Assembly (NCBI GenBank): GCA_013368375.1 | Contig: JAACJP010000016.1 | Coordinates: 682,001 to 746,000 of the forward strand | Origin: Tricholomella constricta | Taxonomy: Eukaryota; Basidiomycota; Agaricomycetes; Agaricales; Lyophyllaceae | DNA: 64,000 nt | Direction: 5' to 3' | In this document: positions 21,574 through 46,100 of the stretch, in pieces | Layout of the letters: every line of letters begins with the position of its first letter | Position numbering within the stretch: the stretch's first letter is position 1 | Position numbers and translations under genes: made by a program | Notes under the pieces: generated by a model | Seen by the model: the letters and a program-made list of their open reading frames with translations, nothing else | The model's database searches: none | Told to the model about the DNA's origin: nothing

Positions 21574-22720
21574 ATGGGTAAACGTCGAGGAGGCCTGAGT
21601 GGACTATCGCAGTTTGTACTTGACGCCTTCAAGCAGAATCCTGCAGCTGCTCCGGATGATGAAAAACTGTCATTGAAGGTCGAGGACTTCGAAGGTCGGC
21701 GTGCGAAACGACAGAAAGTGGCCCCTACTGAGCAGGACGGCGAGGAGGGACGAGTAGGACAGTGGGTAGAAAAATACGATGCGACTGGTCTGGTACCTTA
21801 CTACACGCATGCCTCACAAGTGCCAGAACATCTCAAGAAATGTGCGTGCCGAATTCTTCATCACAATTTTACACCTTGGTGACCAGTCATTGTCCTTCAG
21901 ACTTTTCTCAAAGGAATCGGTATTTTTCACTCTACTCGACGCATCCTGGATGTCTGTTGGATGAGGAAGGCTGGTTCAGCGTCACGCCTGAGCGTGTCGC
22001 AGATCAGATTGCAGAACGGTGTCGATGTGATACCATCTTGGACGCGTTTTGTGGTGTTGGCGGGAATGCGATTGCTTTTGCGAAAACATGTCAAAGAGGT
22101 GCGGGGTCTCCTAGCTTATCGAGGCAGAAAACTTGAAAAAGATCTGCTTCCTTGAAGTCATCGCCCTCGACACGTCGCCTACTCGACTTGCGCTCGCCCG
22201 ACACAACGCTCAGATATACGGCGTGGCGGATCGAATAGAGTTCATTCTGTCCGACTACCTCTCTTTTGCCAGGGCATACCTTGCGCTCCCACCTACACAG
22301 TCCGCTCGCCGCATCGACGTCGTCTTTCTCAGTCCGCCGTGGGGTGGGCCCTCGTATCTGTCAGGCACACCACCTTCCCCCACAAATATACCGAACGCAT
22401 CAGTCGAGCAGGAGACGCATGTCGAAGGACATCCTTTATTCTCTCTCGCTTCCATCCAGCCGATCCATGGCGCCGAGCTATTCACGTTAACAAGGCAAAT
22501 TACGCCCAACGTGGCTTATTTCCTCCCAAGAAACACACGTTTGGATGAGATCAGTGACTTGCTGGAGAGCGAGGTTGGGCTTTACGGCGGCGGGGGTAGT
22601 AAAGCTGGGAATAACGAGCCGGAACATGTCGAGGTCGAGGAGGAATGGATGGGGTCAAAGCTCAAAGCCCTTACATGTTATTTTGGTGGTCTGGTCGCGG
22701 GGCAGGAGGCTCTATTTTAA
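21574..22720 (+). CDS. TGS1: Trimethylguanosine synthase (snRNA/snoRNA cap hypermethylase)
   Basis: SAM-dependent methyltransferase that converts the m7G cap of sn/snoRNAs to m2,2,7G. Start MGKRRGGLSGLSQFVLDAF. N-terminal region with KYDATGLVPYYTHASQVP; after an intron at about 21842-21907 comes YSTHPGCLLDEEGWFSVTPE. SAM motif I is DTILDAFCGVGGNAIAFA. A second intron (about 22099-22152) leads to VIALDTSPTRLALARHNA (motif II). The catalytic motif is VVFLSPPWGGPSYL, with the SPPWGGP signature that stacks on the guanine. It ends LVAGQEALF at 22720. Length (about 310 residues) fits the fungal catalytic core. Intact. Confidence 0.9.
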
Positions 22721-23810: not shown

Positions 23811-23918
23811 AATTATCTCAGCTCACCGGGAATACCTTGCGTGTTAAGAGGGTGGCCGAGGTGTGATTCCCTTTCACGTTTCCGTTGCATTTTGTTTTTC
23901 AGGATCTACTCTGCAGAC

Positions 23919-23925
23919 ATACGAA
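23919..23925. repeat. MULE target-site duplication, left copy
   Basis: The string atacgaa precedes GGGGCA. It is repeated directly after TGCCCC at 30813-30819. The match extends to 11 bp if terminal element bases are counted. Confidence 0.75.
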
Positions 23926-23940
23926 GGGGCAAACAGAAAA

Positions 23941-24097
23941 AGCCGTGGCGCTGCCGTGCACGGCCGTGTATGACCTTGCAGTGCCGTGCATTTTGTGCCG
24001 TGGCAGTACATGTGCCGTGTATGTACCGTGTATGTGCCGTGCATGTGCCGTGCATGTACCGTGAACGAGGTACTGCGTTCAGTGCAGTGCCGTGTTG
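23941..24097 (+). repeat. Left subterminal GCCGTG array
   Basis: At least ten copies of a degenerate tgccgtgca / taccgtg(t/c)atg motif in 160 bp, close to the left terminus. Subterminal arrays of this kind are usual transposase-binding sites; that role is inference here. Confidence 0.7.
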
Positions 24098-24204
24098 CGT
24101 GAACTTGCATGATATTGGTTTTAAGAGAAATAATGAAGATATTTATATAAGAATTGTGATTCCTGTTCGTCAGTACTACCGGCGAGTCGAAGAAGAATTG
24201 CACG

Positions 24205-27200
24205 TCAATTTTTTGTCTTGCGCAAGGGCCGTGGCCTTGGTCGTCGGCTCTCGTCACTGACAGGAGGAGGAGTCGGACGCCTGACAAGGATGAAGCTAGG
24301 TCCACGCTGACGTCGCTTGATTAGTCGGAGCTGCCAGACCTGTCATGACCTCAAGTCACTCACCTCCATTTCTCCCTCACTTCCGTCTCGATCTCCTAGA
24401 TTCCAATGACCTGGTGTTCCTCTATAAGGATCCCAGTCATTTTGATGGTCTCCGGCATCCAAACCCCACTGGTAATGGCCCGCAATTCCCGCTCGCATGG
24501 ACCGTTCAAACATCTTCTCCTCTAAACGCTCCAGGCACTCTTTGTCAACATCGACGTCCGTCCACAGTGATGGAAGGCCGGTAAACTGGATTTTCCATGC
24601 CTTCTCGAGGATAATATTGTCCGCTAGGTGACGATGCTTTGGCTCCGCTTTGAGACGGCTCGAGATGAACACTGTATACGCGTGAGCTATGGGTAAAAGT
24701 CCCAGCCATTTGTGCCGAATTTTCTTGTCTGTGCTGACATGAACTTCAAACCAGTTTGCGACCTGGGCCCTTTCAATGATCGAGAGACTGCCGACATAAG
24801 GAACTAGTGCCCTGGCAAGGCTCTTCTTCTGTGCTTTGATCCATTCTTTTGCAGGTACCCCGGCACTTGGAACACCATCAGGCTTCTTCAAGAGATCAGC
24901 GAGAACTGCCTTTGCAGGAGTAAGCGCATCGTCAACTTCCTTGGTGTATGGAATTGAATCAGGATTTGCCAGAATATCCTCGGGTGTTTCAACTTCGCAG
25001 GCATGTGTCCATTTTCCGAGCTGGAAGGAGAAGTAAGTCAAGGTTCTTGTATCTTTATAATGGGAAAGTAATCTCACTCGTATTTTTCGTCGTTCAGTAC
25101 GGTCCATCCACAGAGAATCGACCAAGTCAATTGCTGGCACTAAGGTGTAGAAGTCTGGTGTGATCCCACTCTCCTCGAACTCGCACCCTCTCCACCATCG
25201 AACAAGCCACCTTGACTGCATTTTTTCTGATTGGATGAGGCGTACAGGATACCAGAACTTTCCATGGCGAGCAAGAGCTCCGCACCCTTCCCTACACAGC
25301 AGTACATCAGCCCATGTTGCGTGCAATAATGAAATATTCTACTGACTTCAATCTTTCCTTCAAAGGCAGTTTCATGCGAGTCTCCTGTTCTATTTTCCTG
25401 AGAATGGTCAGTGCTGCAACCTTTCATTAATTTGAGGTTCACGTACTTGCGTTCAGACGTCCTTGAAGATTTTGTGATTGGTAGTAACGCTGTCACTGTG
25501 CACCTGTCGCACAAGAAAGGTTCGTGCTCTCCGAGCCTGCTAGCCCTTCCTTCCTTCTGACAAGCAATATGTGACCAGTTGCGGCACTCATCACATTGAA
25601 CTGCCTGACCCTCTTCTCTGCGGTAAAGGAGGTTTCCATTTCCGACTGACCCACATCGACAATCAAGAGCAAATAGAGAATCAGGTGCAGAAGATGTGGA
25701 TGAGCGAGCAGATGTGTGAGGTGGCGTGTGAGCAGGCCCGCGCAGAGATGGGGGAGGAGAGGATAGATCAGATGTCAAGTGTCGAGATGATTTCAAACCA
25801 AGTGTGCCACTCTTTGTATCAGGCTTCAATTGATATGTCTCTTCCTCCGATTCTGCCACGTCTGACTCTAGATCAAGGGAAAGCATTGGGTCCAAGATTT
25901 TCGAGAGATACTCCATGGTTGGTCGGCTGGAAGCATTTCTCAACCAGAAACGAGTTTTTTTGTCCATCGGAACCATATCGTCTGCTGTATAGGAGACTGA
26001 GAAACGCTTTCCAAATGATGGTTCTGAGAATCCCAGGCAATACTCCTGTTGAAAGGCTGCTGTTCGTAGGTCATAGAATTTCTTTTGTGCCACTAACCCT
26101 CCACGTAGACGATAGTAGGCCTGGTATGCACGAAATCCTTTGGGAAGCTGGGGGTCCTGGCCTGCCAAGTGTGTAGAGACCTTTGCACCAACTTCTTTGG
26201 TGGGTCTACCTCCATGTTTCATGTCATCATAGGTGAAGACAGTTGTCCGGTCCTCTGAGGCGTAGCGTGCGATGAAATGACTCCCTGCACGATTGACCAG
26301 TGCAAGACCTACTAGATCATAGATAATTCCATCATGTTTGGCAGCGAATGGTGTATGAGGAGCCAATTCTGCAGGAAAATTCCACAGCTGTTGTTCCAGA
26401 GTGGGCTGTTTGCGAGACTGGTCCTGGATCTCAATCCGAAAAGAAATGGGAATAGAAACCACTAGTTTGTCATAGTCTTTTCGCTGCCCAGAACACAAAG
26501 CTTGTCCTCCGTGTGAGCGCCAACATGGCCGCCCGAAAATAGCTGTCTTCTTGATAGAGAAGAAGTTGGTGCAATATTTGATGAAGTTTCCGCCATATTC
26601 CTTGTAATCAGACAAGGTCAAGTAGATCATCGACTCGTGGCGTGGGCTATCCGTGATCTCCATATGTGGCCCACCTGTTGCTACACACCCACTGCAATGG
26701 CGGGTTTCCAATACGAGTATTTGGAAATAGGATGTCGTAAGGAACATTTTTGCCGACTTCTCTTTTGCAAGGAGATCATTTAGCCATGACTTCAAAAATG
26801 ACCTTAAGTACAATACATCCATCACAAAAAAAGAATACACATTACAATGAGAGGCTCATAAGCATCGTGCGGACTAGCCAGTCCATTAGCCTTTAGAAGT
26901 TGTCTCAAATCCTCCCGTTGCATTGTAAGGGCATCAGCTGAAGCATTGCCTGCGATATCCAGGGTCATCCGTGAGGAGATAGCACTATAAAAAGCATGTA
27001 GACAGGAACCGGGGGAGAAAGGCTTGCATATGTGGGAAAATTCCTCGTAATTACCAGTCACGGTCATGTAGAGCAGCTGAAGAGATGTATCCAGCCAGCA
27101 AGAATTTGAATTCCAAGGATAGCTTGGTGGACCCAGAATTGAAGCATCAACTGTAGGTGAGAGACCAGGTTTACGAGGTTTTTTTGCTGTTTTTGGCCGA

Positions 27201-29440
27201 AGAATTTCTTTGGCAGTGTCTGGAGGACGTCCATCGTTCCGTTTGCGCTTCCTGTCTTGGGAGTTTTCAGCTCTACCAGGCTTTGTACGTCCGTACGTGA
27301 TAGCAATGCGCTTCCACCGTTCTGCTTCACCATAACGCACTGGCACACCCTCTATTTTTGATATATGAACGATAGTAAGATCATACTTGAAAGACACGTA
27401 CTTTTAACACTTGAATATTGCCGCTCATAATAAATTGCAATCTGGTACAAAGACGCAAGTCCTTCAAGGAATGCATGGTCACGTCCACAAGCTCGGTAGA
27501 GTTTCCAGTGCATCGCTTCCTCTGCATTAGTTGTTGCTGGTATAGCATCCCACAGGTCAGCATCCATTTTCCGCTCTGATCCAAAAAGCATCATTGCGTG
27601 TGATGGTCGTGACCACCAATTGAACCAGTCCATAAGCTTTGGAAAGTCACGAGCAAGAAGAGCCAGGCGGGAGCAAAATTCATCAGTGTCTGCTGCATGG
27701 AGGAGTGACATGGCACGTTTCACGAAGTCCTCAGCCTTCTCTGGAGGTACTGCACCAGTAATGCGACTAACGCGGGTTACACCAGCACGGAAATGCTCTG
27801 CACAACCCCGCAGTAGCTTTTCAGCTGCATCTTGAAGCTCTTCTCGTGAGCGATTGCTATCAGGACGGCGGTACCAGAATTCAACGAACGCTGTGATGAA
27901 TCCTAGTCGCTCAGCTTGACTGAAATCCATGACCTAACACATCGGACGTTACTTATAGTGTTGGCTTATCATAAAGAGCCTAGTGACATACCCCAGCAAA
28001 CAGACGATCTTCTACTTCCAGATGTCTCTTCTGCGCTTCATGAGCAATGGTCTGGAAGACGGCCAAGAAATGGTACATGAAATGCTCCCCACTGGCACCG
28101 TTCGTAAAGGAAAGGACTCCGGGAACCCAGCAGAACAGGTCTGGGCAGTACGTGGAGCTGACCGGGAAGTCCTCTCTTTCCACCATCCGTGTGCGGCGTC
28201 ACTGACCATTCCATTAACAGGCCCATCGAGAACTTCGTCCTTGACCATCTGAGATTGCATGAAAGGCGTCTGGACGGATATGACAGTCACCTTGCCGATA
28301 GTCGACAGAATGATGAAGCCCGGGTGTTCCTGTTCAAACTTCGCAAAGGCTCGAATGAAATGATCGCCTCCCGTGTCGGCTGGCCGCTTTAGCTTCTGTC
28401 TCTCCTTTGTGACCCTATCAGCATTCAATAGAACATCTGAGATATCTGCCACCGATTCGCCAGGTCCATCGATACCTGGAACTCCAACGATCAACTGCAG
28501 CGGACCGACTTGTGGGTGTGCATTGACCATGGCCTCAAAGCGCCGCTTCTCCTCGGGGAGTAGATGTAATTTTCGAGGTGGTCGGCGATGTACATGATAA
28601 CCACTGTTTTGGTAGTGGATTCCCTTTGACCACGTCCATAGAATAGATTTGACATCACACTTGAGATGATAGAGCATTGCACCACATGAGCATGGCTTCA
28701 GAAGCTGAGTACGGAGGCTTTGTGGCTTTGTATGAGGTCGGACGGTGATTTCGCAGTCCTGATTGTCGCATTGGAGAATCCCTAGGCACGTTCGAGTTGC
28801 CCTCTTTCCGCTCGTCCACTCCTCAGCAAATCTCTGCCCTTTGCGATCACCACCTCCAACGGTATGTGCCCAATGTATTGCCAGATCATTTGTCTCGTTC
28901 ACCTCATCCAAGGTAAAGTCCCGCTCAAATTTCCCATCAGGCCACCCATCCCAGTGGACTTCAGCTCCCGAGTCCTCTTTATGTGCGCGGCCTTGCTTCT
29001 CTTCAGGGTTTTGAATGGGAATAAAATGTCCCTCAGGAGTACGTGTATATATAATTTCATTTGTATTGCCTATGACAAACTTCGATGTGCTTTCAAAGCG
29101 CGTCGGGCCTACAAGTAAGAAAACGGGTCTTTGGGGGCCACATACTTAAGAATGAGAATTTCTTACCTGGAAGCGGTATATTCTTGGGGATCCTAAGTTC
29201 CGAAACGGGTGGCTTGTCTTGTATGTAGCCAATGATGCGGCCTGGAGGAGGTGAGAAGTGCAAAAAAACTCCATCTCAGCAAGACTTACCAGTTGTGTCA
29301 TACATAGGTACTGCCCCAGCAAGGAATGGATCCGACAATAAAGCTCCACCATCTCTGGATATCTCAAGCTCGTCCTTATTCTGCACGCGAGGGACGAAGT
29401 ACTGGTAAACATGTTTGAAGAAACCCTGAGGTGATGTCAT
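24205..29440 (-). pseudogene. MULE transposase fused to USP-like, PHD and Tudor/PWWP-like modules
   Basis: One spliced gene, about 1,500 codons, start ATG 29438-29440 (MTSPQGFFKHVYQYFVPRV). In order: a GCM/WRKY-like zinc cluster (CLGILQCDNQDCEITVRPH, later CSCGAMLYHLKC); a DDE transposase core with GMVSDAAHGWW (D), FTNGASGEHF, VMDFSQAERLGF (D), the MULE CxxH motif GCAEHFRAGV and TTNAEEAMHWKLYR (E); a USP-like domain with Cys box NSCWLDTSLQLLY, zinc-finger cysteines and His box GSHFIARYAS with TYDD; a PHD finger (CRCGS, QCDECRNWSHIAC, LCDRC); a Tudor/PWWP-like segment GKFWYPVRLIQSE ... RWLVRWWRGCEF; and a basic proline-rich tail ending at TGA 24205-24207 after a final intron. An out-of-frame step at about 28160-28185, between the first Asp motif and FPVSSTYCPDL, breaks the catalytic core in this copy unless it is a sequence error. 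Confidence 0.75.
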
Positions 29441-29689
29441 TAGCAACGATTAGACATAGAGTTAAGGGGAAAAACACACTAAAACCATGATGAGAGCTTT
29501 ACTGGAAGAGGTGGGCGTGTAACCTAGGTAGGAAAAAAAACCGGTCCGTTGCAGTGGCCGGAACTCGATCCTCGATCACATTCTCGATCATCCCAAAAGC
29601 TTAGAGGGTACCGTGCCCCTGTTGTGGTCCGTGTAGGTGCCATGTAAACATATAGAAGTATACAAAGAGCAGTGTCATTCCGTGACATA

Positions 29690-29870
29690 ACCCATGCAGG
29701 TGCCGTGCATACCGTGTGTACCATGCAATGCCGTGCAGGTGCCGTGCAGTACCGTGAGCAGTACCGTGCAGTACCGTGCAGTACCGTGAGCAGTACCGTG
29801 CAGTACCGTGAGCAGTACCGTGGATGTGCCGTGCAGTACCGTGGAGGTTCCGTGTCGCACCGTGCTGTTC
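29690..29870 (+). repeat. Right internal GCCGTG/ACCGTG array
   Basis: Tandem 10-14-bp units such as gcagtaccgtgagcagtacc and gtgccgtgcag. Same motif and same orientation as the left array, but about 940 bp inside the right terminus. It lies upstream of the transposase start, so it overlaps the promoter region. Confidence 0.7.
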
Positions 29871-30811
29871 TATACGACGCAGTGAGTATGTTATGGAACA
29901 CATGAGAAATACACATCGAGATGAGCCCCCGAACGATGGTCTGGCGTGGCGGGCAAGGTCAGTGGGAGCTTGAGGGCTGGGGCGCTAGAGTCTGTCATAA
30001 GTCGATGACGTGCCGTTAAACAAAGCGTGTTTCGTCTTGAGACGAAACGCGGTCAATGATGCACGTGACTTAGTTTGTTGAATTCAATATCACACACGCA
30101 CAGGCCACCCAACACCTATCAATGACGCAGACCAAGTCACGAAAAATACATCACGATCGAGGAGCGACCGGTGGAGGCACAGGTGGAGGCAAAAAAAATA
30201 GAGAAGAGACGGGGACAAGCCGAGGTGTGGTGGGCGGAGGGCTGTACTGAGCGAGCGTGGTACACTGAGCTATGGAGTCGAAGCGCTTGGCGACATTGAC
30301 GGCGACGCTGCATGCATTATGATTCATTCGAATGTAGCCCAACGTGAAAGTGTGCGATAGAGTAGCGAAGAGTCGGACGCGTTCCTTATTTGGACCACAT
30401 CCACGTGAGTAGTTCCGCTCCGAAAGTAGAGAGCTGACTCTCTACTTTCGGAGCGGAACGTTGAACAGTCACCCTGAGAAAAGCCTGAAGAAAGACACGA
30501 TTCGGAATGTGATTCACGCAGCATTCGAGTGAAATATCAGGAATCCATTGAACATTCGACAATCCTTGTTTGAATCCCCGCCGAATCGTCAGCTTTGACT
30601 GCCACTCATGTAAAGACTGAAGGCCGCAAGGCGTCCCATCTTGGAGACGCTGTTTCAAAAGGGGAAAGCCGAAGCGTGGGTTGACATCTCCTCCAAGAAT
30701 TTCTGCAGACCTACTACCGTGTCATCCTTCACCTGCCGTGCGAGATACATGTTATTCCGTGGCACGGAAGCACGGCAGCCACGGCATTGCCACGGTAAAT
30801 TTCTTGTGCCC
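29871..30811. other. Right arm of the MULE, no supported gene
   Basis: Holds short minus-strand ORFs (30151-30342, ending PPPVAPRS; 30386-30658) that look protein-like in places but have no recognised domain. It also contains the 22-bp palindrome at 30412-30459 and the tail array of CCACGGC motifs near 30.73-30.80 kb. Confidence 0.4.
30412..30459. repeat. Perfect 22-bp inverted repeat, 4-nt loop
   Basis: Left arm 30412-30433, starting gttccgctccgaaag; spacer ctga; right arm 30438-30459 is its exact complement. Could form a cruciform or RNA hairpin. Confidence 0.9.
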
Positions 30812-30812
30812 C

Positions 30813-30819
30813 ATACGAA
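30813..30819. repeat. MULE target-site duplication, right copy
   Basis: atacgaa immediately after the element end, continuing into ggctcgag, which matches the empty site near 54.8 kb. Confidence 0.75.
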
Positions 30820-31130
30820 GGGCTCGAGACGTTCCTTTCCCTCGTGAAGTCAACAACGAGTTTGGCTCCGGGGGATCGATCGTTGCTATCAGAATTGCTG
30901 GCGCAATTGGATAACTCTCACTCCACAGATGTAAGGCAAATAGTCTCATTTGACCAAGAATACCCTCGCTGTACACACGGCATCGCATATTCCTGGTCAC
31001 ATTCTTCGATGCAACATTCGCGGCTCCAAGCTTAACAAGACCAGCCTGGGCGAGATCCCAGAGTCGCTGCTACACTTCACGCCAGTTCTTCGTAGATCAA
31101 TGACTGCCACCCAATAATAGGGATTCCCGG
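30820..31130 (-). pseudogene. Unidentified gene remnant, copy B
   Basis: Read on the minus strand: RLWDLAQAGLVKLGAANVAS, then (after a 4-bp indel relative to the other copy) CDQEYAMPCVQRGYSWSN, ICLTSVE, a TGA stop where the other copy has Trp, then RSPGAKLVVDF. The protein is not recognised; several Cys suggest a secreted or zinc-binding domain. The MULE cut off its last codons, which remain at 23811-23925 (DPEKQNATET then stop). Confidence 0.5.
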
Positions 31131-31469: not shown

Positions 31470-33099
31470 TCAGAGAAGCTTGAGACGAGGTTTGGGGGCT
31501 GCGCTCCTGGTAAGATAGTGCAAATAAAGACTGGAGAAGGACATCTCACTAGTCGATCCAACTGGAGGACGGGAACTATCATTAGCTGAGTAAATCACAA
31601 ACTTGTGTTTCTTACGTGACATTGCTTGGATGTAAGGACTGGGTGGAGCCCGTTGCAGGATGTTGAGAAACCGCGGTTTCAGAAGTCTGTTGTAATGGGT
31701 AAATGAATGGAAGAAGGAACCGACAGTAGACCCAACTGCTAGAGAATGTTGAGAAACCGCGGTTACAGAAGTCTGTTTGCAATGGGTAAATGAATGGGAA
31801 AAAGGAACCGGCACTTGACCCAACTGCAGAATGTTGAGAGGCCAGTGAACGACGTGAGGATGCTTGAGAGTGAGTGTATGGTAACGAGCCAACACTGGAA
31901 CCGATTCCGGAAGGTTGGGAGTACATAGAGGGGGCCGAAGGTCTTAGGGTCGAAATTCTACTGGAATGCGAACTGTGGCTGTTCACAGAGCAATGAATGG
32001 ACGAATAGAGTGATGTGAGGACATTGAGCTTACCTCGATGATTCCGATCGAGAAATAGCGCTATACTGTGAGGGCCTCATCGTTAGCGCAAAGAAGGAGA
32101 GTGTAATATACAATGGACTGACGCCTTGTCCTGGAGGGTTCATTTGGGGCTGTGGCCAGGACGATTTTGGCATATTAGGGAGTGAACAGCTGGATAGAAG
32201 TTTGACAAACCTGAACTGCAGAGTGTTGAGAGGCCAGAGAATGACGTGAGGGTGCTTGAGAGTGAGTGTGTGCGAACGGACCAACGTTGGAACCGATTCC
32301 GGAAGGTTGAGAGTACATAGAGGGGGATGAGGCTGGTGTGCTCGAAGTTCGACTGGAATGCGAACAGCGGCTAGCAATGAATGGTCGAGCACGATGATGC
32401 AAGGACGCTTGAGCTTACCTCGATGATTCCGATCGAGAGATAGCATTACCGGACTGTAAGGGCTTCATCGTTAGCGCAAAGAAGGAAAGTGTAAAATAAT
32501 GTGGACTGACACCTTGTCCTGGAGGGCTCGTTTGGGCTTGTGGCTAGGACAATTTTTGGTCAAGGAGTGGACAACTGGATAGAAGTTTAACAAACCTGAA
32601 CAACCGGGATCTGCAGAGCCAGATTCTGCGCTACCCCAATTTCTGCGTTGACCATAAGCAGCGAGTTCGCGTCGAGAGCTAGTCTGCTATTTGTCTATCG
32701 TCGATGTTAACGACGCTGCAAGAAGAAATATATCTGAAGCCCCGTACATCGTATTCGGCGATGATTTTGGCAAGTGTTGTCTCAATATCTCTGATGCGAC
32801 TGTTATACCCGTCCCGGATACTGGAGCGGGAAAAGAAATTCAAGGTGCGAAGCTCCTTGTTCATCCTTTGAATGTCAGCGAGAACCCTATGATGTACTCG
32901 TCAAGCTTAAAAGTGGGGAGAAAGGATGAATTTGTACGTACGGCTTGATCTGTCGCGCCGCTAGGTCTTTGGAGAATTGTAAAGAATCAGGACGTTCATT
33001 TACTTTCGCTGTGTGTGCTTTCAAGGCAGATATGACACGATCGATGGCAGCCTTGAGGTTTGCCTTGGTAGGAGTGGGAGTAGGAGTAGTAGAAGATAT
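31470..33099 (-). pseudogene. Coiled-coil protein with Ser-rich tail, copy 3 (start codon lost?)
   Basis: Homologous to copies 1, 2 and 4. Exon 1: TKANLKAAIDRVISALKAHT, then LQFSKDLAARQIKP; exon 2: LRTLNFFSRSSIRDGYNSRI; exon 3: LALDANSLLMVNAEIGVAQN, then LALQIPVVQ. Downstream exons alternate ISRSESSR with Ser-rich blocks containing SMYSQPSGIGS and SLASQHSA. The codon aligned with the copy-4 ATG is ATA here (33097-33099); an upstream ATG at about 33130 is out of frame unless an extra intron is used. The gene may therefore be inactive or use another start. It is divergent from kinase 3. The exact 3' end is uncertain. Confidence 0.5.
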
Positions 33100-39130: not shown

Positions 39131-39656
39131 TGTGATGCCGTTCGAATTAACTTCTCGAGAGGAGAAGTCCTGTAGGCCCATGGACCACAGCGCTCACGTA
39201 GAGGCGTTATCCATGGGCGGGAGGCACGATCGGACCACAGCTCTCCTTGGAGGCGTTATCCGATCGTGCAGATGGTAGAGAGGAAGAAGGGAGGAATCGG
39301 GTCACAGCCTTCTTGTGAGGCGTTACCCGATTCTTCCCGCGCTATGTGACCCTCAGCGGAGGGAGATCTTGACCCGTCCGGGGACTCTGTAAACCTGAGT
39401 GAGGTGAGCTGTAGCCCGGCTCCGGGTCCTAGGCCTAGGAGTAGGCAACGCCTGGCTCGCGGAGTAGACTTATAGTCAGGTAGCGAGCAAGGCAAAAGTA
39501 AATGATATATGTGATGCGCATCCATAAGGGACGCGCGAGGCATTTATACAGGTGCAAGATTACGTAAAATATGTATAGGTCTGATTATTGCATGTCCAGT
39601 TATTGATGTGTCCGAGCCGGGCTCGCGCGCGTCCAAACGTCGTACCCGTCGTCACA
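39131..39656 (-). repeat. 3' LTR of the chromovirus
   Basis: 526 bp. In element orientation it begins TGTGACGACGGG and ends CGGCATCACA, so the termini are an inverted TGTGAYG. A C-run in tgccccccc (39658-39666), G-rich in element sense, abuts it as the polypurine tract. It contains three hairpins (39176-39333). I find no 5' partner LTR in the window. Confidence 0.7.
39176..39333. repeat. Three hairpins with one conserved loop
   Basis: Stems: gcccatgga/tccatgggc (39176-39184, 39210-39218); gcacgatcgga/tccgatcgtgc (39224-39234, 39259-39269); gaatcgggt/acccgattc (39294-39302, 39325-39333). Stem sequences differ completely but each is perfectly paired. Loops of 22-25 nt all begin (c)cacagc and end gaggcgtt(a). 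Confidence 0.85.
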
Positions 39657-39705
39657 GTGCCCCCCCGCGTGCAGACCGGATTGTATCAACTTGATCGGCC
39701 CTCGT

Positions 39706-42700
39706 TCATCGTCTTCGTCGGCCCCTGTGGCTACCAGCCCGGTTGATCCGCTCCTTTTTGCCCGGCCTGTTCGACTTTCGCAAGTCCCGTCCCGACTGTT
39801 GCTGGCTCATTTTGAGAACCTCTCCTTCCTCGAGCTCGGTGGCTGTACTCGGGCCGGGTATCGTGAATCGATCCTGCAAAGGTATGGGGTTCGAAAGGCG
39901 CGACTCGAGAGGGATTCGTTTCGAGGGCTCAGTCAACCTCTCAGACAGGGATGGCCGCGTCGACGGTCCCGCGACAGGATTGAGCGGAGGCGGTGGCAAC
40001 GCCGCCGATGGCGTGTTCGCCGCAGCATAACCCAACCGAGTGAGGACGTCGAGGACGGCCTGACTAGTTAACTGGGCCAGCTGCGCAGGGTCCAGTGTTG
40101 GGAGCGGTGTCGCTGCAGTCACCTCCATATGAGGGGGGGAGGGACCGCGAACGGGGCTCGGGGACATCTGGCACTGCTTCCCTTTCGAAGAGCTGGGAAT
40201 TGGCGGTGGGGATGGCTGGTGGCGCAGGGGTCGAGGGCGAGGGGAAGGAGCGCGGCGCTGGATCGGGGGAGGTTGACGATGATCGTCTCTCGAGCTACCC
40301 GGAGCGTGATCACCCATTCGCCGTAGGGGTGAGTACGAGCGGCGAGGCCAAGGCGATCGTTCGCGAACGGGAGGACTGCGCTGTAGTGGCGACCGCCTCC
40401 TCTTCCTTAGCGCCGGCTCGCGAAGATCTCGCCTGAGAGGTGACGGTTCTCGGGCGAGGTTTCCGGGAGGAGCTTCGTCGCGTGAAGGAGGAAGTCCCGC
40501 TGAAGCCGCCTGTGCTCGATTCGCGCCCGTGGCCATCGCAGTAGGAGCCACCACACTGGCTTGCGCGAAGTCTTCTTCCGTGGCTCACAGAAGTTCGATG
40601 CGGGCTCTGATAGGGGTGGAAGTTAGCGGGTAGGCTCCTCGCAACGCGGCCGCACCCTCTGGAGTTGCCAACGCTACCCATAAAGTCTGACGAAAGGACG
40701 TCGTCGTCCCGACTAGGCTGACGATCTGCACTTCAGGCATTTCCCGAGCGGCCGCCCTCACAGCGTCCTCGACTAAATCGAGCGGCGTGCTAAGAGGGAA
40801 GGGACTTGATCGCAGGAAGGGAGGGTCCACCTCTGGCGGTGGATTCTTCTCTTCCGCCTCAGTCGCTCCCGCTACGAGGGGAACGTCGACGCGCATTGGC
40901 GACGGGGGTCGTGACGATTCCAAAAGAGGCGGCACCGTTTCTCTGGGAGCGTCGAGCAGTTCAGGCTTCGCTACAGGCGGGGCCAGAGGCGGTCCTGATC
41001 CTTCCGTCGAAGCGAGCATCGTTAATTGCGCTACCGGGGGATTTCGATCTTCTCCTTTCGCGAGCGGGGTACTCGTCAGCCCCGGATCTGCCACGACGGG
41101 CGATTCGGGCAGCTTAGGCAGAGCGCTCTTTTCTGGCGGCTCGGGTTGTCTTCCCGCATCCCGCTTCGGATCGAACTGTAAGTAGACCCACTGAGACGCT
41201 TTGAGTCGCGTCTGGCTGTCTACTGTCCAGTACGAGCCAGCCGGAGCGGGCAACCCGAATACTCGCGGATCCGTCGTCAGGCCTGGAGGGGGGAGGAGTT
41301 CGTAATCTGTCCGGAGTTCTCTGCGAAACTCTCGGTCGTAGTAGCGGTATTCCGTCTGCAGGTCGTTCTTTTTGCCGATCTGCACGAATTTATTTTCGCT
41401 AACTCCTTCCCACTTTCCCCACTTCCACGTACGTCCTTGCACGCTCATTACGGCAGGGGGCTTGACCCAAGCGACGCGTCCCTCATAAAGGTCGACGGTT
41501 TCCGGGGGTGGAGCGTCAAACTTCGGGTTGGGCAGGAGGATAGGCTTGTCGGGTTCGTCCATAACTGCGTCGCTGCGGGTAACCTCATCCTCTCGAGGGG
41601 ACTCCGGGCGTGGGGTCTGGGACGGAAGGGCCATACTCCGGTGCTCTCTCCGGTCCATCCTTGTTTTGAAGGGTGGGTTAATTCCCGGTGAATCGCCGAA
41701 GCTATGGGTTCGGGAGTGGGGTACGGAGAGGTCCTATAGTAGCTTCTGACGCTCCCGTTCCGTATGGCAACGAAATCGTACGTGTTCCTTTCGGAGTCGA
41801 GGAATTGAACATCGGTACCCTCAGTCCAACTACGTCGATGATCGTGGGCGACTCTCATCGTCCATCGATCGTCGGGATCCAATCGGTGCACTACAAAACA
41901 AGGCACTCCCTGACTGAGAAGCCAGAGAGAGTCCTGTTCTCGGTTCTCGTTGATCCAGACTCCCATGAATTTATCGTCCGGGGAGGAGCGCCTTCTCTCC
42001 GCTTCCGCACGTCGTCGATGACACCGCGCCATCCTGCAGACATCAGTCGGGACACGAAGGTTACCCACGCCATCCGGTCCTTTAGGTTCCGTTGAATTTC
42101 GACTCCCGAGTCAACGACTTCTTCCCATGTCGTTAGTCGAGCCAGACGGTCTATTTCGCTTCGGAGAGGTAGTCGGGGGCGAGAGTCCCAGTAATAAGTG
42201 TAATGACCCTGCAATCCCGCTAGATCCGTCATTGATTTTTCGAGCTCATCGAAGCGTCGATGCAGTCGGGTCACGTATTCCATCGGTACGCGTCCGACAT
42301 GGGGGCCGGTACTCTCCCACTGTTTGCTAAATAGTTCATATTCAGGAAGTTCGTTCCGCCAGTTGTATCCCACTTGAGGCCGCAGAATGAATCCTCGCCA
42401 GGGTTGTCCACTCACTATTTGTGGGGACACCGTAAAGTCGAACCTGCCCAGATGTCCGTCTAGACGTCGTTGTGTTCGATCCCGAGGTACGGTTGGCGTC
42501 CATCCTTGAGGAACGACTCCGGGTAGGAAGGGAAACTGCCTCGAATTTGGTGACCAAGCTAGGTACTCCGAATTCACCATTCTACTGCTTAGTTGCTGGA
42601 TTCGCGGCAAGTAAAAGGAGATCGAATTGTCGACGACTGGGGGTTCTTCATATCCGGCGTTGCTAGCGAGGCGGGGCGTTCCAAATGACCGGGAATCGTA

Positions 42701-42706
42701 AGGCAT
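39706..42706 (-). pseudogene. Extra ORF between integrase and 3' LTR
   Basis: About 1,000 codons on the element's sense strand, read through three frame segments. 42706 to about 41950: MPYDSRSFGTPRLASNAGYE, with GHLGRFDFTVSPQIVSGQPW and GFILRPQVGYNWRNELPEYE. About 42000 to 41650: DDKFMGVWINENREQDSLWL and QGVPCFVVHRL. 41658 to 39706: TWKWGKWEGVSENKFVQIGK, proline-rich stretches, RRM-like VQIVSLVGTTTSFRQTLWVA, an in-frame TGA at 40585-40587, then SR/PR-rich sequence and the basic end RAGSHRGRRRR. Two frameshifts plus one nonsense codon make it non-functional here. It could be a displaced gag-like protein or a third, nucleic-acid-binding protein. Confidence 0.6.
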
Positions 42707-43109
42707 ATTAAAGGAAGATTTGTTTGATTGGGGCGGGAGGCGATGCGATAGTAATACTGTTGATTTGCGGGATCGTCACACAAGGCGATAAAACACCGGT
42801 TATGATCCGTCGTCGGTAAAATTACGCGGGGAAGCGGGAGGGAAGTTTAGACAGCGGTTCGGACAGAATGTTTGTCGTTGCGAAGAAGGTAACCCGGTCG
42901 CTTCGTAGGATCGTCACACAAGGCGTTAAACACCAGTTATGATCCGTTATTGATATGATTAAGTAAGGGTTTAGAGGATTAGACGGCGGTTTGGTCTGGG
43001 GAATGTCGTCGAGGGTAGAGCGTTGATAGTCGCGATGTCAGAGTGTTGATGGTTGAAAAATAAGAAGGTTTGATGGCGCTTCGCGTCGCTCCCGGAATTA
43101 AGCAATTAT
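42707..43109. other. Pol/ORF3 spacer with repeated hairpin motif
   Basis: About 400 bp. Two copies of ggatcgtcacacaaggcg ... gttatgatccgt (42770-42808 and 42908-42945), each framed by GGATC/GATCC, 138 bp apart. The core gtcacacaaggcgttaa resembles the loop of the LTR hairpins at 39.2-39.3 kb. Confidence 0.6.
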
Positions 43110-46100
43110 TTAGGTAAGCTTGTGCAGCACGTGATACTCGCGCTTCAACGCGGGCGCGTTCCGCAGGGCAAATTCCGATACCCAGCTGTCGTCGGCTGGA
43201 TCGAATCCTTTCCAACGGATTAAGTACATTCGTCGGTTTCCATCTTTCTGACTGGTCAATCGATGTCCCAGTATCGCTTCCACCTCGTATTCCTCGGAGG
43301 CCATGAAGTCACGCGTAGGAGGTAGAATCGTTCGTTCGCCGAATCGAGGATCCGAGGGGGTATATTTCCGGAGGTGTTCAAGATTAAACACCGGATGCAT
43401 AGGATACGTATCGGGCAGTCGGAGTCGATACACCAAAGGATTGACTTTCTCCATGACTTCGAAGGGTCCGATACTACGTTGAATTAGCTTTCGTCCCGTT
43501 CCTTCTACATCGACAAGTTCCAGAGAATGCGGATTGACTAGGGCCCAGTCGCCCTCCTTGAGTTCAACCAAGGGGCATCGTCCTTTATTGTAAGCTTTAG
43601 CTTGTCGTTCCTGAGCGAGTACTACAGCATCGCGGGCGTTCTTCCGATGCATCTCCAGTTCTTCTAAGAAGTTTTCACTCTTTTGACTAGCGGTAAAAGG
43701 CCTCGCAACCGGGTCTATTGTAGGGACTACGACACCAGCAGTGGTCTGCGGTTTGTAGCCCATTAGTAGAAAGTTTGGCGCGTACGTCGTCGAAGAATGT
43801 ACGGCGGAGTTGTAGGCATGCACGAGAGCCGATAACCATTGCGCCCAAGAAGTTCGGTCCGTCGCCACGTACGCTCGTAACATTTGTTCTATCGTAGCGT
43901 TAAGTATTTCCGTTTGCCCATCGGTTTGAGGATGATGAGCTGAGGATAAGGCCATAACGCTCCCGTAACTTTCTACTACGGATCTCCAGAACGCAGTAGA
44001 CCATCGCCGATCACGGTCAGCGATTATGCGCTCCGGTAATCCTTAGACGTTTGCGATTCTTTCTACGAATATTCGCGCGAAACCCTCCTGAGATAGAGTT
44101 TCGTGTGTGGGTAGGAATAATCCGTACTTTGTGAGCTTATCTACGACGACGAGGACTGCAGTATACTTCAACTCTCCCGACGGAGGTAGCCCGGTAATTA
44201 AATCGAGAGACACCGTCGCAAACGGTCGAGCAGGAACGTGGGCCGGTCTGAGGCCTCCCATTTTCTTCAACCGGCTGGATTTGATTTTTTGACAGACATC
44301 GCAGGAATAAGCAAAATCGTCGGCGTCCTTCGACATGGTTGGCCAGAAAAATAAGTCTTTTAGTCGAAGGAGTAGTCTTCTAGGTCCTTCGTGCGCGCTC
44401 TCAAAGGGGGATTCGTGGATCCATTTAAGTATGAAATTGGTTTGACTTTTCGGCACACAAAGTCTCGTGTTCCAGTCGGCGTCTATGAAGTAGAGCAACC
44501 TGTTATTCCCTCATTGGAATCTTGAAGGAGTAAGAAGTTTCTGAGCATTTGGTATTTCCTCGGGATACTTCTTCGAGAAATAACCATCTCCCTGGTAAGC
44601 GTCACGGAATCGCTTGATTAGATCGGGGTGCATGGAAATCAATAAGTGGGATTTCTTGCTCCAATCGTCGTCTAAAGCTTCAAGCGGTACTTTGACTCCA
44701 GTAGGATACGTCCAGTGGTCGTTGTTGGGGAATGGGAAGGCTCCAATAGTCTGGTCCTTCTCTTCTCGCTGGTTAGCTTTCGCTTCACCAATGCAAGGAT
44801 TGGATTCTTGCCGGTTAGCTTTCGCTTCACCGTCGCATGAATCAAGGTCCCGTTGGTTTGCTTTCACGACACCACTACGGGTTAAGACCGGGAAGACTTG
44901 TTTGTCTATTATATCCTCCCACCACCATACTGCGAAGGCCGCTTTCTTAGCCGGGGCGTAAGTGCCTTTGTCTTCGGCGGCTTGCGCTGCAGTTTGGGCG
45001 TGGTCGTCTGGGATGATAGGTAGCACGTCATCGCGAACAGGAGAATTATGCGGTGGAGTTCTTGGCAGCCTAGAAAGAGGATCCACGTTTGAGTGTATCC
45101 TTCCTGGCCTGTGGACGATCTTGAGGCCTGGGTAAGCAGCGTACACAGCCCCCCACGCCGCTAGTCTCCTGTTCGCATTCTCGTAAACTCGAGCCCACTG
45201 CAGGGCAGCGTGATCAGTGATGAGAATGACCGTCTCCCCTTCTATGAAGGGTTGGAATTTAACGAGAGCCTCTTTGGCTCCGAGCGCTTCTCGTTCGGTT
45301 GCACTATAATTCTGTTCCGCCGGTGACAGAGTTCTACTCCAATAGCAGATAACTCGTTCGACGCGTACTACTGTGGCATCGAGAGACGTCCCCCACTCAA
45401 TGGGAGTCAAGCCTTCGTCTACGTCCTTTGTGAGAGTTGGAACGAGGGAAGGCACGGGCACTCTCTCCTCCCAAGCCCTGGACAAACGATCGTACATCGG
45501 AGTACCTCTCAAGTTCGCGACCGCTAAGGATTGTACTTGTTGAAGACTCGCCCCTAGGGCAACGTCAGAGGCGTCGGTGTAAAGTCGGTAGGGTTTACCA
45601 CGCTCAGGGTGGCCGAGTACCGGGGCCCTGGAAAGCGATTCTTTGATATGCCGGAAGGCGATTTCCTGGTCCGCGGTCCAAGGCCATTTAACGCCTTTCT
45701 TTAATAGGGTGAAAAGCGGTGCTGCCATGAAGGAGTAATGTGGGATGTAAGAAGAGAAGTAGATAACCATCCCTAGGAACTTTTGCAAGTCCGCGACGCA
45801 GCGGGGGCTATCTAGATCCATAATGGCGCTGACTTTCTCCTGGTGAGTCGAGAGCCCTAAGCACGAGACTTACTGTCCTAGTAAGAGGATGGAAGCGTAT
45901 CCCACGAAACACTTAGGAGGAGAAAGAGTGATCCCGGCGGTGGCTATGGCTCCCAGAACCTTGTCGAGATGAATAAGATGCTCATCCCAAGTTTTGGAGA
46001 AGACGACGATGTCATCTATATAAACCAGGGAAAATAACCATAGGAAGGGAGCCAGAATGCCCTGCATGACGCGTTGAAAAATAGAGGGTCCGTTACGCAG

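Follow-up and report, generated by a model that had tools for sequence, protein, structure and literature searches.

A probable Mutator-like transposon of Tricholomella constricta whose single gene is predicted to join a transposase, a USP-fold protease and a PHD finger

Ubiquitin- and SUMO-system proteases have been gained repeatedly by unrelated transposons. Ulp1 on Mutator and Ginger1 transposases, in some of them along with a PHD finger, has been published for hydra and other hosts, and OTU proteases occur in Ginger1 and in Helitrons (PMC2836005; papers given by PMC number are cited for sections of their text). The subject of this work is a transposon in the mushroom Tricholomella constricta (Agaricales, Lyophyllaceae), which lies in a 64,000-nucleotide stretch of contig JAACJP010000016.1 (C16:682001-746000, hereafter the window; genome searched, 44.1 Mb) and is likely a Mutator-like element (MULE). 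In its predicted architecture it resembles the Ulp1 transposases of Mutator and Ginger1, which likewise unite in one protein a DDE transposase, a protease acting on ubiquitin-like modifiers and, for some of them, a PHD finger, but their protease is Ulp1 or OTU, the Ginger1 core is Gypsy-integrase-like, the hosts are animals and plants, and neither a GCM nor a PWWP-like module is mentioned for them in the sections concerned (PMC2836005).

Other described systems share single features with the window element. A peptidase C19 domain, that is, one of the ubiquitin-specific protease (USP) type, sits on a DNA transposase of Trichomonas vaginalis (XP_001314237.1), which is named in passing and differs in its transposase_11 core and protist host, with no histone reader mentioned in those sections (PMC2836005). 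Helitrons with VTD or OTU also encode deubiquitinases, and VTD activity has been measured, but they are rolling-circle elements with other protease classes, and the VTDs of Agaricomycetes are mostly fusions with host RBR ligases (PMC9741609). Rehavkus has a 9-bp duplication, a PHD finger in the transposase and a minisatellite near its end, whereas its hosts are arthropods and annelids and no protease is listed for it in the sections concerned (PMC6446971). The TET/JBP-carrying Kyakuja, Zisupton and Plavaka elements are mushroom DNA transposons with a chromatin-acting enzyme, although that enzyme is a DNA dioxygenase and the elements belong to other superfamilies (PMC12730594). The transposase-derived RAG1/RAG2 system also has a ubiquitin-system domain, the RING of RAG1 (PMC10799480). 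Unlike the window protein, which is predicted to remove ubiquitin, RAG adds it, and RAG is domesticated and made of two proteins. RAG2 carries a PHD reader. The published Mutator/Ginger ULP1 and PHD, Helitron OTU/VTD and Trichomonas transposase_11-C19 proteins narrow the novelty of the window element; an earlier note on this stretch, made from the letters alone, went too far in calling the architecture a different one, because both ULP1-plus-PHD transposases and a C19-bearing transposase are already in print (PMC2836005). No report of a USP-fold protease plus PHD finger on a GCM/MULE-like transposase in fungi or mushrooms was found in searches of an open-licence library.

We consider it probable that the window holds a MULE-like element with a single gene for a predicted transposase, a USP-fold ubiquitin-removing protease, a PHD finger and possibly a PWWP-like module in one chain, including the mechanism set out below. 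The element has defined ends and a 9-bp duplication, its exons are open, and its parts follow a conserved order under purifying selection. A protease, a predicted histone reader and a transposase in one predicted chain, conserved in mushrooms and under selection, allow a clean test at the catalytic Cys and the PHD cage, and several dozen "hypothetical" mushroom proteins of ∼880 to 1,870 amino acids are offered an identity. The ends of the element are as follows.

23927..30811: whole transposon, 6,885 bp (alignment with the C5 copy, GGGCA.../...TGCCC termini and 9-bp duplication)
23918..23926: left target-site duplication CATACGAAG, identical to 30812-30820
30812..30820: right target-site duplication CATACGAAG, identical to 23918-23926
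23927..23968, plus strand: left terminal inverted repeat (TIR), imperfect, ∼42 bp (aligns locally with the reverse-complemented right end)
30771..30811, minus strand: right TIR, ∼41 bp (local alignment with the left end)
24009..24063: subterminal minisatellite, unit CATGTGCCGTG (TRF)
29703..29844: subterminal minisatellite, CCGTG units (TRF)

A copy on contig C5 (L009) aligns to the window without a break over 23926-30459 at 91.5% identity, with extra matches at 30513-30581 and 30713-30811, and the two sequences diverge past the element ends, where each has its own 9-bp repeat (CATACGAAG in the window, TGGTTTCCG in C5). Among the seven elements with both ends, of which three belong to a second family (a second site in C16, C39 and C21), the 9-bp duplication is perfect (9/9) in six and matches at 8/9 positions in the seventh (C42), a size within the 8- to 11-bp range of MULEs; the count omits C38, C17, C35 and C83, which have no second intact end in hand. 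The CCGTG minisatellites sit inside the TIRs according to TRF. Three deletion derivatives (L017 in C42, L018 in C15 and L019 in C17) share the junction 24277|29468 within 1 nt and retain only the first exon and the last 73 nt of the gene, the C42 derivative additionally holding ∼6 kb of other DNA.

The gene was modeled manually from a three-frame reading and the exon junctions of homologues.

24205..29488, minus strand: gene, 11 exons, ∼1,580 amino acids
29488-29480, 29425-29290, 29241-29167, 29108-27992, 27933-27402, 27351-26846, minus strand: exons 1 to 6
26789-25447, 25397-25347, 25291-25078, 25020-24364, 24306-24205, minus strand: exons 7 to 11
28163..28163, minus strand: 7-nt deletion in the window copy relative to the C5 copy, breaking the frame

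The earlier note had drawn the gene at 24205..29440 with one short intron. The stop at 24205 stands, whereas the start moves to 29488 (MVLGFFKHV..., the same start as in several homologues); the intron that it saw between the Glu motif and the Cys box (27401-27352, 50 nt, GT-AG) is confirmed but is one of ten, all GT-AG and 48 to 58 nt long. The manual model supports the single gene that had been proposed, and its frame is free of stops except at the frameshift, which falls between the first and second catalytic Asp of the window copy and which the conceptual protein reads across with an X; the C5 copy has a 1-nt gap at 29218 relative to the window copy. The frameshift, the GCM domain and the element ends were all absent from that note, while the motifs do lie on the minus strand in the order that it gave: TTNAEEAMHWKLYR, the intron, NSCWLD, GSHFIARY, a C4HC3 PHD finger and FWYPVRLIQ/WLVRWWRG (within 25291-25078). 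As judged from sequence comparison, this order is confirmed to exceed chance, recurring in the C5 copy, in a second family and by eye in a third, and, as to the Glu motif standing before the Cys box, in 36/60 proteins. The NCBI model of the gene (P0001, 1,282 amino acids) matches the manual model across the greater part of the transposase and again from WNFPAEL on.

The transposase part comprises four features.

28534..28953, minus strand: GCM-type zinc DNA-binding domain (amino acids 126-265)
28198..28200, minus strand: first catalytic Asp (VSDAAHG), kept in 42/42 rows, codon checked
27925..27927, minus strand: second catalytic Asp (VMDFS), 41/42 rows, one gap
27517..27522, minus strand: Glu pair of the third catalytic motif (TTNAEEAMH; TTNAEEAMHWKLYR), 38/42 and 39/42 rows, the rest gaps

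Many MULEs carry a zinc-cluster DNA-binding domain of the WRKY/GCM1 type, and WRKY-GCM1 fingers were reportedly the subject of Babu et al. 2006. The window protein has such a domain, of the GCM type, and the best match of its core is ISCth4, which we take to belong to the IS256 family. The element is likely a MULE-like DNA transposon of Agaricomycete mushrooms, in support of the earlier reading. That the transposase instead belongs to another superfamily, as a fungal Rehavkus relative, a KDZ or a hAT element, seems rather unlikely. The Z scores of ISCth4 and of the hAT transposase Hermes differ by no more than 1 unit, and Rehavkus combines 9-bp duplications with a PHD finger and with a minisatellite ahead of its 3' TIR (PMC6446971), subterminal minisatellites being present in the window element too; however, the duplications here are 9 bp long versus 8 for hAT (PMC9713403), and the GCM zinc domain and ISCth4 as best core match also count against another superfamily.

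Downstream of the Glu motif, the same chain continues into the predicted protease.

26106..27124, minus strand: USP-fold protease domain (amino acids 700-1020), split by the intron 26845-26790
27098..27100, minus strand: predicted nucleophile Cys (NSCWLD), 38/38 rows with a residue, gaps in 11/49
26277..26279, minus strand: predicted catalytic His (GSHFIARY), 46/46 rows with a residue, gaps in 3/49
26226..26228, minus strand: Asp predicted to complete the triad (FTYDD); of 49 rows, 48 have a residue, which is D in 44 and N in 3

The boxes of USPs (peptidase C19) occur in the order Cys, His, Asp/Asn; among rows with a residue, 38/38 have the Cys, 46/46 the His and 47/48 an Asp or Asn, and the predicted fold of a homologue places the Cys and His boxes in a USP fold, as had been anticipated. 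The fold search of the second half used one 848-residue model, and its match list was filled by USPs; VTD had no row among the fold matches listed, and no VTD sequence was compared. A phmmer search of the USP-like part against the PDB returned a single chance row. The USP region of the family was cut out by motifs, which retained 34/60 proteins; sought on other long proteins, the USP-like part was found on six, all of the same family and far below the family size, so that this was a weak test. A further set of Cys and His residues (C, H, C, C) is conserved in 43-45/49 rows and may be the zinc site of USP fingers. Going by the homologue fold, the domain would be a cysteine isopeptidase, predicted to remove ubiquitin. 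With the architecture unchanged, the protease could instead be a USP-fold SUMO isopeptidase like USPL1, taking the role that ULP1 may have in other MULEs, a live alternative that we nevertheless regard as doubtful. In the Foldseek list, USPL1-SUMO complexes come third and sixth (E 2.3e-9 and 3.0e-9), and ULP1 has been described from Mutator elements in hydra, in lancelet and in several plants (PMC2836005; PMC13317346). Conversely, the possible USP-finger zinc site may count against a SUMO protease, and neither USPL1 nor VTD has a row among the 50 VIA matches listed, an absence that excludes nothing.

Beyond the protease, the chain carries the putative readers and a C-terminal domain.

25500..25661, minus strand: PHD finger, C4HC3 (Pfam PHD 4.2e-5; 23.9 bits, cut-off 24)
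25078..25291, minus strand: candidate PWWP/Tudor-like module (amino acids 1257-1327), four predicted strands, ratio of nonsynonymous to synonymous rates (dN/dS) 0.09
24364..25020, minus strand: helical C-terminal domain, model confidence mostly at least 90, dN/dS 0.41

The PHD finger that had been noticed is supported by its zinc ligands and by the Pfam PHD profile, which matches 17/18 homologues at E≤0.1 (best 3.1e-6), and the best PDB matches of its own profile include Bye1 (9.3e-12), SHPRH, ASH1L, EBS, SET3 and MLL5. The residue two positions before the zinc-binding His is Trp in 35/40 rows with a residue (of 49), a position that in BPTF and other readers of methylated H3K4 contributes to the cage. 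Because of this conserved Trp and because the nearest solved relatives are histone readers, the finger likely reads histones and would serve for docking to them. The module that follows, with Tyr-Pro and Trp-Arg invariant in 17 rows, possibly resembles PWWP or Tudor; the predicted strands fit the Tudor/PWWP-like module of the earlier note, but no profile matches it.

The 60 proteins retrieved formed the protein set; the first protein search and the first selection run used a preliminary gene model, which 17/56 homologous proteins covered to at least 90%. Homologues include D9615_006638 and D9615_006598 of T. constricta, and all sources are mushroom-forming fungi by name, presumably of the orders Agaricales, Boletales, Gloeophyllales and Polyporales, apart from the nameless P0056 and a Synchytrium match. 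The latter, which covers only 2% of the query, was among at least four further proteins from a profile search with 18 sequences. Glu motif and Cys box occur together in 36/60 proteins, with the Glu motif first in all 36, and all seven strict motifs occur in order in 10/60. The domain order is common to the window and C5 copies and is kept in the second family, whose USP/PHD part is 44 to 52% identical. In a third family (C50, L048, C50:7001-16900), with a transposase 24 to 28% identical by tblastn, inspection by eye showed the same order once more, from a zinc cluster like that of GCM through all three catalytic motifs to NSCFFD, KHFSAEI, YNDM and a PHD finger, and the PWWP-like module was not seen; gag-like reading frames stand beside this motif series.

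Purifying selection acts on each module. Between the window and C5 copies, dN/dS is 0.19 overall, with 0.10 for GCM, 0.07 for DDE, 0.22 for USP, 0.05 for PHD, 0.09 for the PWWP-like module and 0.41 for the C terminus (Fisher P from 4e-30 to 0.02 across these comparisons), the last exon lying outside the alignment. Comparison with the half copy in C38, in which the GCM part is missing, gives 0.05 to 0.44 (P≤0.032), and window pairs in the earlier preliminary-model run gave 0.09 to 0.51 per region. It is very improbable that the protease and readers are captured host passengers adding nothing to transposition, for although gene-fragment capture is frequent in MULEs (PMC2528002, PMC13317346) and the deletion derivatives move without an intact gene, each module is under purifying selection, and order and catalytic residues are kept across the family and, by eye, in the 24 to 28%-identical family.

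Several observations count against a single-chain MULE-like element with a USP-fold protease. The predicted fold is that of a homologue 55% identical to the window protein, and the USP identity depends on this prediction and on conserved residues. The UCH profile (PF00443) matched 0/18 proteins at E≤0.1, and its 26 matches in the genome include none at the gene; because of the missing UCH match, we call the domain USP-fold and do not file it as a C19 member. An HHalign comparison with a rough profile built from exons of host USPs did not reach significance (Prob 1.2), though the His boxes were in register. No Pfam transposase model matched, and the PWWP-like segment had no Pfam match and only two chance rows in a PDB profile search. 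P0001 has a different end and leaves out the frameshift stretch, the exon with the Cys box and the final two cysteines of the PHD finger; the skipped Cys-box stretch is under purifying selection (dN/dS 0.23, Fisher P 1e-7). In 24/60 proteins one of the two, Glu motif or Cys box, is missing by strict patterns, some of these being partial or differently spliced models. No genome copy was demonstrated to be intact: the C39 element has lost its transposase, and the close copy in C38 (L010, L015) is split by rearrangement into halves ∼20 kb apart in opposite orientation, and therefore by inversion or misassembly.

If the single-chain reading is right, the GCM domain, as predicted from the homologue fold, would recognize the repeat-rich element ends, and the cutting and joining of DNA would fall to the DDE core, by cut-and-paste with 9-bp staggered joining. 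The PHD finger, perhaps together with the PWWP-like module, may hold the transposase on methylated nucleosomes of active chromatin, where the protease would act in cis, taking ubiquitin off the transposase itself and off neighboring chromatin proteins. Such removal could let the complex evade proteasomal removal and silencing long enough for transposition. A part of the readers in target choice, as the earlier note proposed, is conceivable. As it jumps, the element probably removes ubiquitin from its own transposase or from chromatin, and we favor protection of the transposase complex and local chromatin opening, both together. More speculatively, and with little confidence, the element may represent an old mushroom transposon lineage in which the PHD and PWWP-like modules find H3K4-methylated nucleosomes and the USP-fold domain erases histone ubiquitin before integration, a counterpart of RAG, in which a PHD reader is coupled with a ubiquitin ligase.

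The second-family element in C21 (L012/L014, C21:93353-119127) has both ends, with ∼19 kb of other DNA between them, parts of which are matched by window positions 39131-43664; in its annotated protein, P0034, the transposase continues into a CCHC/gag-like part. In C83 (L021 4535-5049), 515 bp are 100% identical to window 23927-24441 and are followed by unrelated AT-rich DNA (120 nt read); from the sequence, this one-ended piece is very recent. Within the right end of the window element, positions 30412-30459 have perfect 22-nt palindrome arms and match many other genome sites, as a repeat resembling miniature inverted-repeat transposable elements. The left neighbor of the insertion is a trimethylguanosine synthase-like gene (22115-22720, plus strand; Pfam Methyltransf_15, 3.3e-25), and outside the element, 31822-32556 contains two direct-repeat pairs, 84 to 87% alike, with a spacing of ∼390 bp.

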